This document shows, piece after piece, positions 11,958-27,450 of a stretch of 64,000 bases of DNA. The first letter of the stretch is position 1, and the number at the start of each line of letters is the position of its first letter. Where the stretch lies: positions 62,001 to 126,000 of the forward strand of contig NZ_FMCW01000015.1 of NCBI RefSeq assembly GCF_900091595.1, given 5' to 3'. A program made the translations under genes and the position numbers. This DNA is from Micromonospora haikouensis. Its GTDB lineage: Bacteria > Actinomycetota > Actinomycetes > Mycobacteriales > Micromonosporaceae. The notes beneath the pieces were generated by a model, which saw only the letters and a program-made list of their open reading frames with translations, was not told where the DNA came from and did no database searches.

Positions 11958-12030
11958 GCGCCCGTAGCTCAGCGGATAGAGCAGGGGACTTCTAATCCCA
12001 AGGCCGCAGGTTCGAATCCTGCCGGGCGCA
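11958..12030 (+). tRNA. tRNA-Arg (anticodon UCU)
   Basis: 73 nt. The acceptor stem is GCGCCCG/CGGGCGC with discriminator A, the D-arm is GCTC...GAGC, the anticodon loop CTTCTAA gives UCU at 11991-11993, and the T-arm is GCAGG TTCGAAT CCTGC. CCA is not encoded. The first pair of the anticodon stem is a G-A mismatch. The 3' half is the integration site of the AICE; because the crossover core is identical, the tRNA stays intact. Confidence 0.97.
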
Positions 12031-12032
12031 CA
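11988..12032 (+). repeat. attL core (inside tRNA-Arg)
   Basis: This is the 45-bp segment from the anticodon loop to two bases past the tRNA end, identical to 27406-27450. Identity stops on both sides (11987 G versus 27405 C; 12033 G versus 27451 T). Confidence 0.93.
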
Positions 12033-18343: not shown

Positions 18344-18562
18344 GTGGCCACGGTGAGCCGTCGATTCCCGATCCCCCGCCCCGCCGATGACCCGCGCTTC
18401 ACGTTCGGTCTGGCGCTGGACGTGGCGCGCGTGCTCGCCGAGCACGGTTACCCGTCGATGGCCGAGTCCTACGACGGCTGCGGTGCTGACCTGCTGGCGC
18501 TGCAAGACGCCCTGTTCGGCCTGATCTACGCCCCCACCGACACCACGGAGGTTCCGTCGTGA
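18344..18562 (+). CDS. Small conserved AICE protein
   Basis: A 72-residue protein with PRPADDPRFTFGLALDVARVLAEHGYPSM and LLALQDALFGLIYA. No motif of known function. It lies 3 bp after the previous gene, and its last bases overlap the start of the next (GTGA), so it is cotranscribed. A second GTG (18353) could be the true start. Confidence 0.72.
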   Translation: MATVSRRFPIPRPADDPRFTFGLALDVARVLAEHGYPSMAESYDGCGADLLALQDALFGLIYAPTDTTEVPS

Positions 18563-19458
18563 CTGCCCCCACCATCAACGGCACCCGCTACCCGCAGCCG
18601 GTAGAGACGCTGCTGCCGGCCGCCCGCGCCTTGGACCTGCCCGCCGGGCAGCAGTTCCCGTCGCGCAACCGGTTGATGCGGGAGTTCCGCATCGGCGCGG
18701 CGAAGGCTGACGAGATCCTCGCCCGCCTCAAGTCCGAGCACGCCACCCGTACCCGGGCCGAGACGCTGCGGACCGCGATGATCGTGCGTGGCGCGCTGCT
18801 GACCCCCGAGACGGACACCACCGGCACGGCCGCGCCCCGGTTGGACTACCCGGAGCCGATCGGCCCGGACCCGCTGCCGACCCCGGCCGCACCCGAGTCC
18901 ATCCCCGTATCCGACCCGGTGCCGGTCGCCCCGGTGGAGATCACGCCGGTCGAGCAGGATGCGCCGGTCAGCGTGGTCAGGCACCCGGACACGACCGCCC
19001 CGACCGCCGCCGACGCCGCGCCGGCTACGCGGGTGCGGTCGGCGGTGGCGTGGCCGGTGGTGCTGCTCGCGCTGCCCGCGTTCGTCGCGATCTGGTCCGG
19101 GTGGGTCGGGCTCGGCGGGCTGACCGGGTTCGGGATCGTGCACCCGCTGCCCGGGATCGCGGACGGGTTCAGCCTCAACACCGCGATCACGCTCCCGATC
19201 GGCGTCGAGACGTACGGCGCGTACGCGCTCTACGTGTGGCTCTCCGGTCGGGTGCCGAACGTGGCGCGCAGGTTCGCGAAGTGGTCCGCGCTCGGCTCCC
19301 TCGCGGTGGGCGCGCTCGGCCAGGTCGCCTACCACCTACTCGTCGCCGCCGGCATCACCTCGGCCCCGTGGTGGATCACCACCGCCGTCGCGTGTCTCCC
19401 GGTGGCCGTGCTCGGCATGGGCGCCGCCCTGGCGCACCTCGTACGCGCTCACGACTAG
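18559..19458 (+). CDS. SpdB/DUF2637-like membrane protein with N-terminal HTH-like domain
   Basis: A 299-residue protein. The N-terminal 75 residues (LPAARALDLPAGQQFPSRNRLMREFRIGAAKADEILARLKSEH) resemble a winged-helix/GntR-like fold. A Pro/Thr-rich linker follows, then four membrane segments from about residue 160 (AVAWPVVLLALPAFVAIWSG, the TLPIGVETYGAYALYVWLSG region, LGSLAVGALGQVAYHLLVAAG, WITTAVACLPVAVLGMGAALAHLV). This fits the DUF2637/Spd proteins that help spread conjugative DNA through the mycelium. GTG start coupled to the gene upstream. It is followed by the first of two conserved intercistronic hairpins. Confidence 0.78.
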   Translation: MTAPTINGTRYPQPVETLLPAARALDLPAGQQFPSRNRLMREFRIGAAKADEILARLKSEHATRTRAETLRTAMIVRGALLTPETDTTGTAAPRLDYPEPIGPDPLPTPAAPESIPVSDPVPVAPVEITPVEQDAPVSVVRHPDTTAPTAADAAPATRVRSAVAWPVVLLALPAFVAIWSGWVGLGGLTGFGIVHPLPGIADGFSLNTAITLPIGVETYGAYALYVWLSGRVPNVARRFAKWSALGSLAVGALGQVAYHLLVAAGITSAPWWITTAVACLPVAVLGMGAALAHLVRAHD

Positions 19459-19464
19459 CTCTGC

Positions 19465-19510
19465 CCGGCGGCACAGCCCCACGGCCTAGGAACCAGTGCT
19501 GTGCCGCCGG
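19465..19510 (+). ncRNA. Intercistronic RNA hairpin, copy 1
   Basis: 13-bp perfect stem (CCGGCGGCACAGC at 19465-19477 with its complement at 19498-19510) around a 20-nt loop containing GGCCTAGGAACC. The same element recurs at 20377-20421 with the same loop, while two stem pairs changed from A-T to G-C on both sides. It begins 6 bp after the stop of the SpdB-like gene. Not a simple terminator, as the operon continues; probably mRNA processing, protection or differential expression. Unnamed as far as I know. Confidence 0.7.
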
Positions 19511-19551
19511 CCCTCACCCCTCAACCCTCACGGACATCAGGAGAGACCACC

Positions 19552-20019
19552 ATGTTCGCAGACCCGACCGGCACCCGCGCCGCCACGTTCGCTGCCGTGT
19601 TCGTCGCCCTCTACGTCGCCCACCAGGTCGCCGACCACTGGGTACAGACCCAGCATCAGGCCGACTGCAAGGGCCAGCCCGGATGGGCCGGCAGGATCGC
19701 CTGCGCCGCCCACGTCACCACCTACACCCTCACCGCGCTGATCGCCCTGCTGTTCCTGATCGCCGGCACCGGCCTACGCCTCGACCCCTCCGGCGTCGCC
19801 GTCGGCCTGGCCGTGTCGGCGGTCACGCACTACATCGCCGACCGGCGCACCCCGCTCCAGCGCATCGCCGCCGCCCTCGGCTCCGCCCGCTTCTACACCC
19901 TCGGCACCCCCCGCCCCGGCCACGACGACAACCCCAGCCTGGGCACCGGCGCCTACGCCCTCGACCAGTCCTGGCACATCGGCTGGCTGTTCGTCGCCGC
20001 CCTGTTCTGCGCGGTCTGA
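19552..20019 (+). CDS. Small polytopic membrane protein (DUF3307-like)
   Basis: A 155-residue protein with about three to four membrane segments (AATFAAVFVALYVAHQVADHWVQ, HVTTYTLTALIALLFLIAGTG, GVAVGLAVSAVTHYIADRR, WHIGWLFVAALFCAV). HQVADHWVQT and THYIADRR repeat a His-x-x-Asp pattern seen in DUF3307-type proteins. ATG at 19552 with CAGGAGA upstream. It lies inside the transfer operon, between the two RNA hairpins, so a spread or membrane role in transfer is likely but unproven. Confidence 0.75.
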   Translation: MFADPTGTRAATFAAVFVALYVAHQVADHWVQTQHQADCKGQPGWAGRIACAAHVTTYTLTALIALLFLIAGTGLRLDPSGVAVGLAVSAVTHYIADRRTPLQRIAAALGSARFYTLGTPRPGHDDNPSLGTGAYALDQSWHIGWLFVAALFCAV

Positions 20020-20107
20020 CCGCCCCCGTAGGGCATCCGCCCACCACCGGATGCCCACGCGGAGGCCGCCAGACCAACTGGACGGCACAACCGGGAGGAC
20101 AACCACC

Positions 20108-20329
20108 GTGAAGTGCAAGGACTGCGGCAAGAACACCAACGACATCGTCACCACCAGCCGGGGCCCCCTCGCCCGGTGCGAGTGCGGCGGCTGGACGAAG
20201 GTCAACAGCTCGACCGGCGTCAACATCACCGGCGACATCAACGTCAACGGCACCTGCGCGATCGGCCCCGGCGCGGTCGCCATCGGCAAAACCGGCAGCA
20301 AGAAGGACAAGAAGAAGGGTCGCCGCTGA
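20108..20329 (+). CDS. Zinc-ribbon protein with G-D-I-N-V-N-G repeat
   Basis: A 73-residue protein. CKDCGKN (CxxC) and CECGG form a likely zinc ribbon, then a Gly/Asn-rich stretch (STGVNITGDINVNGTCAIGPGAVAIGK) with a short repeat pattern like a beta-solenoid turn, and a lysine-rich end. GTG at 20108 with GGGAGGA upstream. It lies in the transfer operon before the translocase gene. I do not know a function. The Gly/Asn stretch is of the kind also seen in the cargo proteins at 13734-15003. Confidence 0.68.
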   Translation: MKCKDCGKNTNDIVTTSRGPLARCECGGWTKVNSSTGVNITGDINVNGTCAIGPGAVAIGKTGSKKDKKKGRR

Positions 20330-20370
20330 TGGCCGCCCGGTGCCGCTGCTGCGGCGCAACCGACAAGTAG
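20329..20370 (+). CDS. Possible 13-residue Cys-rich peptide
   Basis: ATGA-type overlap (TGATG) with the previous stop, then MAARCRCCGATDK and a stop 6 bp before the second hairpin. Coupled translation is possible. It could equally be chance in a short spacer. Confidence 0.3.
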   Translation: MAARCRCCGATDK

Positions 20371-20376
20371 CCCTGC

Positions 20377-20421
20377 CCGGCGGCGCGGCCCCTCGGCCTA
20401 GGAACCGTGCCGCGCCGCCGG
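20377..20421 (+). ncRNA. Intercistronic RNA hairpin, copy 2
   Basis: 13-bp perfect stem (CCGGCGGCGCGGC at 20377-20389, complement at 20409-20421) with a 19-nt loop that again contains GGCCTAGGAACC. Flanks CTGCCCGG before and CCGGCCCTC after also match copy 1. It begins 6 bp after the small ORF and 41 bp before the translocase start. Confidence 0.7.
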
Positions 20422-20462
20422 CCCTCCCCGAATCGACAGCCGACCACGGAGGAACACCCATC

Positions 20463-22652
20463 ATGACGTCCCCCCACGATGACGACCGGTTCGACTGGCA
20501 GGCCGCCGAAGCCGACGTGACCTCCGGCCCTGACGCTGAGGTGGTCGACCTGGACGCCGCCCGCGCCGCCCGCACCACCCCCGACCCCGCCGACAGCAGC
20601 GACAGCGGCGGCGGGCCGCTGCTGGTCGACTCCGCCGACGCGCAGCGGTCCCCGCGGTTCACCCTGTCGGGTGCGCGGGCGGGGCAGCGTCGCCCGATCC
20701 TGCCCGCCTGGCTGCGCTCCCGTGCCGAGCTGGTCGACGTGATGCGCTGGGCGGTAGGGCACCTGCTGCACACCTCCGCCTACCACGGGCTGCGGGTGCC
20801 GAAGTACGTCGGCAAGCTCGCCTTGCGTTCCCCGGCCGGCGCCGCCCGGCTCGCCTCGGGTGGGGTGCGGTGGGTGTTCGACTGGGAAGGCGAGCACCTG
20901 CGGCAGTCGACGTCGCAGACCCGCGACGGTGAGCTGTACCTGAAGCTGTCGAAGCAGCGTGACCGGCGGGTGCGGTGGCGGGGCATCGTCGCCACCTTCA
21001 CCCTGTCGATGTCCCTGGCCGGTGGTGTGGCCGTGGCCCTGGCCCCGGGATGGGCGCAGTGGGCGATACCCGCCCTGCTCGTCACCCTGTGCGGAATGGT
21101 GGGACAGCCGGCCGACAAGCCGCTGCTCGACACCGCCGTGGTCATCCCCCGCGTCGCCCGCCTCACCTCCGACGTGGTCGTGCGCGCCCTGGCCGTGCTC
21201 GGCATCGCCGGCATCACCCAAGCCATCGCCAAGCAAGGCACCAAGGCAATCGCGTTCACGGCCCCGATCACCCGCGACGGCCCCGGCTGGCGAGCCGACA
21301 TCGACCTACCCCCCGGCGTCACCGCTGGGGACGTGATCGAGCGGCGGGATCGGCTCGCCGCCGGCCTCACCCGGCCTCTGGGCTGCGTGTGGCCGGAGGG
21401 GCAGCCGGAGGTGCACCCGGGGCGGTTGCTGCTGTGGGTGGGCGATCAGGACATGGCCGCGACGCCGCCGAAGCCGTGGCCGCTACTCAAGGCGGCCGGG
21501 GGTTTCGATCTGGGGCGGCCGGTGCCGTTCGGTACCGACCCGCGCGGGCGGATCATCTCCTTCGAGCTGCCGTACACGAACGTGCTGATCGGGTCGATCC
21601 CCGGCTACGGCAAGACCGCCGCCACCCAAGTCCCGCTGCTCGCCGCCGCCCTCGACCCCTACGCGGAACTGTGGTGCTTCGACTTCAAAGGCACCGGCGG
21701 CTTGGACCCCCTCGAAAAGGTGTCGGCGCGGTACGCGTCGGGGCAGGACGACGACACCGCCGAGCAGGGCCTGATCGCGTTGCGGGAGCTGCGCAAGGAA
21801 TGCCAGCGCCGCGCCGCCGTCATCAAGGGCCTCCCCAAGACGGTGTGCCCGGACAACAAGGTCACCCCCGACCTCGCCCGCCGCCGCAAGCTTGGCCTGC
21901 ACTGGCTCGTGGTCGCCCTCGATGAGGTGCAGGAACTCTTCTCGCACCCGGAGTTCGGCAAGGAAGCCGGCGAACTGGCCGAGAAGGTCATCAAGCTGGG
22001 TCGCGCCCTGGGCGTCATCCTCGTCGTCGCCACCCAACGGCCCGACGCGAAGAGCCTGCCGACCGGGGTCAGCGCGAACGCGGGTACCCGGTTCTGCCTG
22101 CGCGTCATGGGACAGATCGAGAACGACATGATCCTCGGCACCTCGGCGTACAAGAACGGCATCCGGGCGACCATGTTCGCCAAGAAGGACAAGGGTGTCG
22201 GCTACCTCGTCGGCGCGGCCGACGACGCCCAGATCGTCCGCACGTTCTACATCGACGGGCCCACCGCCGAGAAGATCACCGACCGGGCACGCGCTCTACG
22301 TGAGGCTGCCGGGACGTTGACCGGTCACGCGGTCGGGCAGGCCCCGGCCACCCCGGCGGCGCGGCGAGACACGCTGCTCGACGACATCCTCACCGTGGTT
22401 CCGGTGACGGAGCCGAAGGTGTGGGCCGAGACCCTCACCGAACGCCTGGCCGACCTGAACGCGGACGCGTACGGCGACCTGACCCGCGACCAGTTGACCG
22501 CCGCGTTGAAGCCGTACGGGATCACCACGGGGCAGGTGTGGGGCACCGACCCGGCCACCGGCAAGGGCGCGAACAGGCGCGGCATCGACCGGCAGCACAT
22601 CGCCGACGCGGTCGCGGAGCGTAACAAGCGGCGGGGAGACAAAGCCGCCTAA
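20463..22652 (+). CDS. FtsK/SpoIIIE-type DNA translocase (TraB/TraSA-like transfer protein)
   Basis: A 729-residue protein. Two membrane segments lie near residues 180-215 (ATFTLSMSLAGGVAVALAPGWAQWAIPALLVTLCGMVG). The FtsK ATPase domain has Walker A GSIPGYGKT at 377-385, FDFKGTGGLDPLE, and Walker B LVVALDEVQEL (D487, E488), then VATQRPDAKSLPTGVSANAGTRFCLRVM. A C-terminal wHTH-like part (DQLTAALKPYGITTGQVWG) may read clt-type repeats. Such proteins alone pump double-stranded element DNA between hyphae. ATG at 20463 with GGAGGA upstream. Product length is normal for the family and both ATPase motifs are intact. Confidence 0.95.
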   Translation: MTSPHDDDRFDWQAAEADVTSGPDAEVVDLDAARAARTTPDPADSSDSGGGPLLVDSADAQRSPRFTLSGARAGQRRPILPAWLRSRAELVDVMRWAVGHLLHTSAYHGLRVPKYVGKLALRSPAGAARLASGGVRWVFDWEGEHLRQSTSQTRDGELYLKLSKQRDRRVRWRGIVATFTLSMSLAGGVAVALAPGWAQWAIPALLVTLCGMVGQPADKPLLDTAVVIPRVARLTSDVVVRALAVLGIAGITQAIAKQGTKAIAFTAPITRDGPGWRADIDLPPGVTAGDVIERRDRLAAGLTRPLGCVWPEGQPEVHPGRLLLWVGDQDMAATPPKPWPLLKAAGGFDLGRPVPFGTDPRGRIISFELPYTNVLIGSIPGYGKTAATQVPLLAAALDPYAELWCFDFKGTGGLDPLEKVSARYASGQDDDTAEQGLIALRELRKECQRRAAVIKGLPKTVCPDNKVTPDLARRRKLGLHWLVVALDEVQELFSHPEFGKEAGELAEKVIKLGRALGVILVVATQRPDAKSLPTGVSANAGTRFCLRVMGQIENDMILGTSAYKNGIRATMFAKKDKGVGYLVGAADDAQIVRTFYIDGPTAEKITDRARALREAAGTLTGHAVGQAPATPAARRDTLLDDILTVVPVTEPKVWAETLTERLADLNADAYGDLTRDQLTAALKPYGITTGQVWGTDPATGKGANRRGIDRQHIADAVAERNKRRGDKAA

Positions 22653-22666
22653 CCCGGACAGCCGTC

Positions 22667-22708
22667 GGGTGCTAGGTCTAGCGGCACCCCCCGCTAGACC
22701 TAGCACCC
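22667..22708. terminator. Strong terminator after the translocase gene
   Basis: Perfect 18-bp stem (22667-22684 with 22691-22708, core GCTAGGTCTAGCGG) and 6-nt loop, 15 bp after the stop. A degenerate third arm (CCGCTAGCACC) follows. It closes the transfer operon. Confidence 0.8.
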
Positions 22709-25627: not shown

Positions 25628-25688
25628 ATGGCCGCAATGGCAGAAACCCCGCTGAGTCGGGGTTTCTGCCATTCTCGCCATTTAGACC
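25621..25688. terminator. Very long bipartite terminator stem
   Basis: Outer 12-bp perfect arms (GGTCTAAATGGC, 25621-25632, with 25677-25688), a symmetric 3x3 internal loop, then inner 16-bp perfect arms (25636-25651 with 25658-25673) and a 6-nt loop: 28 pairs in all. The stop codon of the gene at 23660 is in the outer arm. It could terminate from both sides. Confidence 0.85.
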
Positions 25689-27405: not shown

Positions 27406-27450
27406 ACTTCTAATCCCAAGGCCGCAGGTTCGAATCCTGCCGGGCGCACA
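27406..27450 (+). repeat. attR core
   Basis: Perfect 45-bp copy of the 3' half of tRNA-Arg. It has no 5' tRNA half, so it is not a gene. It marks the right end of the element; 27451-27617 is a short spacer to the next chromosomal gene. Confidence 0.93.

Follow-up and report, generated by a model that had tools for sequence, protein, structure and literature searches.

A family of intercistronic hairpins in actinobacterial TraB-type conjugation operons, pointing to a hitherto undescribed mRNA control element

The integrative element and its transfer operon

The window, by which we mean the whole 64,000-nucleotide stretch of Micromonospora haikouensis DNA that was analysed, contains an AICE of approximately 15 kb, marked by a tRNA-Arg(tct) gene, an integrase, a TraB/FtsK-like protein, a DUF3987/DnaB_N protein and a 45-nt direct repeat. 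The sequence-only reading had assigned the two hairpins considered here to the transfer operon of such an element, and the tRNA gene, the integrase, the TraB/FtsK-like protein and the direct repeat bear out this setting. The relevant features are as follows.

11958-12031: tRNA-Arg(tct) gene
11988-12032, + strand: 45-nt att repeat at the 3' end of the tRNA-Arg gene, with a second copy at 27406-27450
18559-19458, + strand: spdB-like gene upstream of hairpin copy 1; its protein cluster is found upstream of 57 of 116 hairpin copies, the window's included
19456-19464, + strand: TAG stop codon of the spdB-like gene (19456-19458) and 6-nt spacer CTCTGC
19465-19510, + strand: hairpin copy 1, arms 19465-19477 and 19498-19510, loop 19478-19497, loop core 19483-19494
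19552-20019, + strand: DUF3307 gene downstream of copy 1 (Pfam PF11750, E 2.7e-07)
20031-20056, + strand: a different hairpin with a 9-bp stem and the 8-nt loop CCCACCAC, 11 nt past the DUF3307 stop codon
20108-20329, + strand: gene for a zinc-ribbon-like small protein (TIGR02605, E 1.6e-04, below cut-off; GTG start picked by eye)
20329-20370, + strand: putative 13-codon ORF (MAARCRCCGATDK) that overlaps the preceding stop codon and is followed by copy 2
20368-20376, + strand: TAG stop codon of the 13-codon ORF (20368-20370) and 6-nt spacer CCCTGC
20377-20421, + strand: hairpin copy 2, arms 20377-20389 and 20409-20421, loop 20390-20408, loop core 20395-20406
20463-22652, + strand: TraB/FtsK-like translocase gene downstream of copy 2 (NF041214 plasmid_TraB, E 3.2e-08, and PF01580, E 1.4e-04, both below cut-off)
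22667-22708, no strand assigned: 18-bp perfect inverted repeat with nested palindromes, 14 nt past the traB stop codon

The product of the spdB-like gene gave no match to Pfam or NCBIfam, and the name SpdB is applied presumptively, from the position of the gene and the hydrophobic C-terminal half of the protein. The 13-codon ORF ends in CRCCGATDK, and similar endings precede hairpins in loci L041, L061 and L066. The element contains six perfect stems of at least 9 bp, five of which are located 6-14 nt past the stop codon of an ORF.

Two hairpins with a common loop

Both hairpins possess a 13-bp stem in which all 13 pairs are Watson-Crick, and both contain the loop core GGCCTAGGAACC, whose only exact occurrences on either strand of the 7.58-Mb genome are these two. 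Two stem pairs that are A-T in copy 1 are G-C in copy 2, so that both sides have changed, and each stem begins 6 nt after a TAG stop codon. The positions, the identical loop, the paired substitutions and the location 6 bp behind a stop codon within the operon had all been described from the letters alone, and each proved accurate. Fold z-scores are -2.97 (copy 1) and -3.34 (copy 2) on the + strand, and -2.85 and -2.62, respectively, on the - strand; neither stem is followed by a run of T residues. A search of the whole window against Rfam release 15 at the gathering threshold returned a tRNA as the sole match, and positions 19300-20600 gave nothing at E<=5, in keeping with the earlier remark that no named RNA family is known to carry such a loop.

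A family of related hairpins

In the first model that we built (R1) the 3' arm was misplaced by four columns, so that R1 was in effect a sequence model; at E<=1 it found matches in 103 of the 200 genomes searched from the window's family. The 35 sequences behind the second model (R2) came via R1 and hence were not picked for possession of the correct stem, on which both R2 and a third model (R3), made from a diverse set of copies, were built. Further copies, for which the sequence-only reading had suggested a search, are abundant: at E<=0.01 the R2 covariance model has matches in 127 of the 300 genomes searched from the window's family, spread over 23 of 44 genera. Its matches to the window copies extend from 19456 to 19516 (81.3 bits) and from 20368 to 20427 (69.2 bits). 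The two window hairpins belong to a real family, beyond chance. Four R2 matches (E<=0.01) are present in the genome of origin, two in each of two AICE-like loci that encode SpdB, TraB and DUF3307. A pattern scan of named genomes identified 29 loci, 26 of which have an R2 match and belong to Micromonospora, Salinispora, Asanoa, Plantactinospora, Virgisporangium, Actinoplanes or Catenuloplanes, genera that we take to be Micromonosporaceae; the other three (L128, L132 and L151) have neither a stem nor an R2 match.

In a phylum-wide sample of 296 genomes, R2 matched the genome of origin and four others only, the latter marginally and with sequences that by eye resemble chance or other palindromes. 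With R3, matches were obtained in 9 of the 394 genomes searched across the class, the genome of origin among them, and in 7 of 35 from one other family. There were 11 R3 matches outside the genome of origin in the class search, one of which (L249, E 0.008) has no stop codon in place and was set aside as probably due to chance. Nine regions of two other families were fetched and contain ten copies, all ten of which start 6 nt past a TAG, TGA or TAA codon; a start codon follows the match by 23-35 nt in nine of the ten, and TraB is encoded in eight of the nine regions, at times upstream of the hairpin. In a Streptomyces decoyicus plasmid the R3 hairpin lies between DUF6257 and FtsK genes. Seven annotated plasmid regions, this one included, yielded one clear R3 match and one weak one (E 0.011), the rest being without a match; R2 matched neither L121 nor L122, and BLAST with one hairpin against plasmids gave a single partial match (E 0.1).

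Two sets of copies were counted. From 150 R2 rows we retained 116 copies (the window plus 80 fetched loci), the other 34 being opposite-strand readings of retained hairpins. A separate TraB search of 121 genomes found a match in 68, and the upstream regions were fetched for 60 of approximately 70 matches not already covered; 44 of 61 R2 rows from these regions were retained, and those dropped were opposite-strand or weak (E >=0.0008, except for two opposite-strand rows of L188 and L234). Counts over the resulting 160 copies concern kin and not independent events.

No description of such a hairpin element was found in the titles or abstract openings of open-licence literature on AICE, spdB and TraB operons or on RNA motifs of the family, and the available portions of PMC3364876, PMC3218068, PMC8269248, PMC5872136, PMC4170104 and PMC9513070 make no mention of one. 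Taken together, our observations point to a control element within the message that has not been described before.

Covariation of the stem and conservation of the loop

The letters of the stem vary, whereas complementarity and the loop core are retained. When 62 diverse copies are aligned, pairing is retained in 98.3% of stem cells, and two-sided changes are observed at 10 of the 13 pairs, in 59 cells. None of 500 shuffles reaches the values for pairing, for pairs with two-sided changes or for cells, and structures slid out of register yield at most 12 cells; further pair types number 17 against 14.4, which 11 of 500 shuffles reach. The earlier set of 35 copies had 98.2% of cells paired, with two-sided changes at 4 pairs and in 32 cells; 1 of 500 shuffles reached this number of two-sided pairs, and further pair types were not above the shuffles. 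The covariation that had been proposed from two copies is borne out in the larger set by the shuffle comparison, and selection on the folded stem is well supported.

Among 140 distinct hairpins, 1790 of 1810 stem cells are Watson-Crick; the exceptions, as read on the mRNA strand, are 14 A.C, 5 G.U and 1 other. The 160 copies contain 42 different 5' arms of perfect stems. With the perfect stem as its boundary, the loop is 17-22 nt long in 145 of the 160 copies, and 17-24 nt in 148. Its core, [G]GC[C/T]-N2..5-AA-N-C in most copies, varies by subtype, and 149 of the 160 conform to a simple pattern.

Locus L079 provides an orthologous operon, in which SpdB is 60% and TraB 89% identical to that of the window. 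Both of the A-T pairs of copy 1 are G-C in this locus. At its second junction the sequence upstream of the hairpin has been replaced and cannot be aligned, the hairpin and the traB leader are retained, and the spacing to the stop codon is 8 nt.

Location relative to genes and stop codons

TraB is encoded in 76 of the 81 loci of the first set. The gene that follows the hairpin encodes TraB in 42 of the 116 copies, DUF3307 in 24 and another membrane protein, of 155 residues, in 12. One of these 155-residue proteins (L102, 5419-5883, - strand), which occupies the place that DUF3307 has in other loci, was scanned and matches PycTM, a Pycsar effector. Where AICE loci possess both spdB and traB (68 loci), 92 of 94 copies are located between the spdB stop codon and traB, on the traB strand, so that the fixed position between spdB-like and tra genes anticipated from the window holds in the family. 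A hairpin was detected by R2 in 38 of the 60 traB upstream regions (one with its loop inverted) and was borderline in one; none was detected in 21, several of which are short contig ends. Hairpin-adjacent TraB proteins may be as little as 33% identical to that of the window (G084).

In 129 of 160 copies the stem begins exactly 6 nt past a stop codon, compared with an average of approximately 1.2% for other offsets; 31 copies have no stop codon at this distance, and since the models contain the stop codon the count is somewhat biased toward copies that have one. In the first set of 116, the 6-nt spacing is present in 99 copies by model frame and in 94 by stem start, and the 94 follow ORFs belonging to 20 blastp clusters, although some of the upstream ORFs are uncertain calls; by eye, several of the small ones contain CxxC motifs. 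The spacing is found in all 57 copies behind the spdB cluster versus 37 of the 59 others. The stop codons used in this set are TAG (51), TGA (42) and TAA (6). In 82 cases filtered for an ORF of at least 100 codons beginning within 60 nt, the next start lies a median of 41 nt after the stem (quartiles 39-44).

Other stems nearby and in related loci

Other types of hairpin are present in the same operons. The one at 20031-20056 represents a second type found behind DUF3307 genes, 10-12 nt past the stop codon, with a 9-bp stem that varies among L059, L074, L078, L100 and L117 and an 8-nt loop like CCCATCAC. Long perfect inverted repeats with nested palindromes (GCTAGGTCTAGC, GCTAGCGCTAGC) occur soon after traB in many loci, and another type of post-traB repeat carries repeated CCGGTCGCGG. 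The inverted repeat at 22667-22708 is a candidate terminator or clt, the latter being the site of direct 8-bp repeats that TraB binds. A 16-bp perfect inverted repeat is also present at 25636-25673, 8 nt past the rep gene. A different stem (GCCGGGCGCGG or close to it), with a similar loop core in which the closing pair is swapped (CGCCT..AACG), is found in L042 (6703), L043 (6633), L044 (6816), L065 (6554) and L087 (6792, all in traB-strand numbering), and a comparable loop core on yet other stems is seen in some R2-negative traB loci (L201, L203, L239) and at other junctions.

Which strand or molecule acts

The compensatory changes had originally been taken to signify selection on RNA structure and not on DNA. 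Selection on the stem is upheld by the 59 two-sided cells, but two features of the family stand against RNA on the sense strand. Firstly, the 19 wobble cells (14 A.C versus 5 G.U) lean slightly to the opposite strand, for which the mean MFE is also lower (-36.9 versus -31.6 on the mRNA strand; 4 of 100 distinct hairpins were omitted from the alignment used). Secondly, five copies, identified by eye, carry an inverted loop with stem and flanks unchanged, as if flipped between the arms (L150, 4076-4121; L188, 408-466; L234, 1519-1577; L237, 2803-2863; and L228, about 733-773), and loop orientation may therefore be non-essential. The spacing to the stop codon and the orientation of the hairpins argue for RNA rather than DNA, and on these sequence features the mRNA strand is probably the acting one.

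Possible roles of the hairpin

An mRNA element provides the best fit to the data, since the hairpins are oriented with the operon, occupy the stretch that separates the last ribosome on one gene from the first on the next, and possess a long conserved loop. We therefore favour, tentatively and in the knowledge that it may well prove wrong, an intercistronic family of mRNA hairpins in actinobacterial TraB-type conjugation operons, whose loop would be read and which would set the ends of cistrons. As ribosomes finish a cistron the hairpin would form directly behind them, and a conserved factor of the host or of the element would bind its loop; the bound hairpin might then mark or protect the 3' end of the upstream cistron and separate it from the next, by way of processing by an RNase, obstruction of 3'-5' decay or both, with different levels of expression for genes on one transcript as the outcome. 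It is conceivable, but in our estimation rather doubtful, that the hairpins constitute a stop-codon-anchored class of cis RNA, in which a conserved loop 6 nt past the stop codon would be read by a host factor to set the output of each gene, serving as a standard joint for unrelated cargo genes. We infer a ranking in which processing or protection of cistron ends comes first, partial termination and a DNA-level role next, and a ribosome-directed role after these.

Partial termination, by which U-poor hairpins (Rho-linked or I-shaped) would grade expression along the operon, would account for GC-rich perfect stems immediately past stop codons and for the U-poor stems that also stand behind traB and rep in the same element; for S. 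clavuligerus, the part of PMC8269248 available to us lists 353 transcript 3' ends that are structured and poor in U. The loops of the present hairpins are nevertheless far from the 4-8 nt optimum cited there, their sequence is conserved, and the stems are located in mid-operon with the next start approximately 41 nt on. At least three T residues in the next 8 nt are found in only 21 of 160 copies, and in neither the U-tract (at least three U in 8 nt, as defined in the same source) nor the short loop do the hairpins resemble a canonical intrinsic terminator. The view that a plain terminator is improbable, already expressed in the sequence-only reading, is strengthened by the long conserved loops and the few T residues, but the U-poor structured ends of Streptomyces (PMC8269248, in the part available) leave room for partial termination, which we consider unlikely.

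Also unlikely is a site that acts as DNA, whether a cruciform, a site for TraB or a transfer protein, or a gene-swap boundary that is intergenic by chance. Such a site would be compatible with the frequency of TraB in the loci, the swapped stretch on the upstream side in L079, the many unlike small ORFs upstream, the inverted loops and the lean of the wobble cells. Its difficulty is that the arm sequences diverge widely while their mutual complementarity is kept, and a fixed DNA operator is a poor fit because the arms vary to the extent noted above. In addition, variation of the loop within 17-24 nt would shift helical phase, the usual fixed spacing to stop codons would not be expected, and the sps palindrome (CGTCACGTGACG) was not found, in ungapped form, in the window at one mismatch or fewer.

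The hairpin could alternatively act on ribosomes that reach the stop codon, by delaying their release or promoting re-initiation at the next gene approximately 93 nt downstream. The spacing of 6 nt that recurs behind dissimilar genes might suggest this, as might the narrow range of distances to the following start. Most downstream starts possess their own Shine-Dalgarno-like sequence, although the choice of starts favoured those that do; frames after the stop codon are spread 37/33/26, and conservation of the loop would not be explained, which makes this role improbable. It is very improbable indeed that the acting structure is an antisense RNA bearing the hairpin on the opposite strand: the excess of A.C cells and the better folding of that strand would agree with it, but the 6-nt spacing to the stop codons of sense genes would be left unexplained, and 14 against 5 is weak for related sequences.

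Several other candidates were rejected. The spread of downstream frames excludes general read-through of the stop codon to give fusions, and the use of all three stop codons excludes a selenocysteine-type hairpin. Kissing of palindromic loops was discarded as CCTAGG is one of many loop types, and a phage origin because viral contigs gave no exact pattern match and annotated phages partial matches only (E 0.4). Cassettes of gene plus hairpin travelling as a unit were also rejected, similarity being 0.587 for the same upstream cluster in different loci, 0.573 within one locus and 0.468 between loci.

Significance

The element is widespread, structured and conserved, its copies in the window are unmatched in Rfam, and the operons that host it encode a conjugation system, as yet poorly understood, by which double-stranded DNA passes between mycelia. 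Across many genomes of soil actinobacteria the hairpin has retained the same shape, loop and usual 6-nt place while the letters of the stem are swapped in matching pairs. The usual fixed spacing behind unlike genes offers a handle on the tuning of gene dosage and on the uptake of genes by operons, and the loop could serve as bait for the putative factor that reads it.

Comparison with known systems

REP elements are small GC-rich hairpins, often located past stop codons, that are dispersed in large numbers through a chromosome. The present hairpins are similarly small, GC-rich and often behind a stop codon, but dispersal in many copies is not seen, the four R2 matches in the genome of origin being confined to two AICE-like loci.

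The sps palindrome of Streptomyces plasmids is the site of SpdA2 and, like the present family, is a conserved inverted sequence associated with spread genes of conjugative actinomycete plasmids (PMC4170104, in the part available). It differs in being a loopless palindrome of 12 bp, located within or upstream of spdA, with a near-fixed sequence that is bound as DNA.

The rpsO-pnp operon of Streptomyces contains an intergenic hairpin that is cleaved by RNase III and resembles those described here in being intercistronic within one actinomycete operon (PMC5872136, in the part available). That hairpin is found at a single locus, in contrast to a family repeated in mobile elements, a distinction drawn from its description. 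Finally, the U-poor structured ends and I-shaped terminators described in the accessible part of PMC8269248 share with the present family a GC-rich stem after a gene and few U residues, from which our hairpins are set apart by a loop that is mostly 17-22 nt long, a conserved loop core, a location in mid-operon and the usual spacing of 6 nt from the stop codon.
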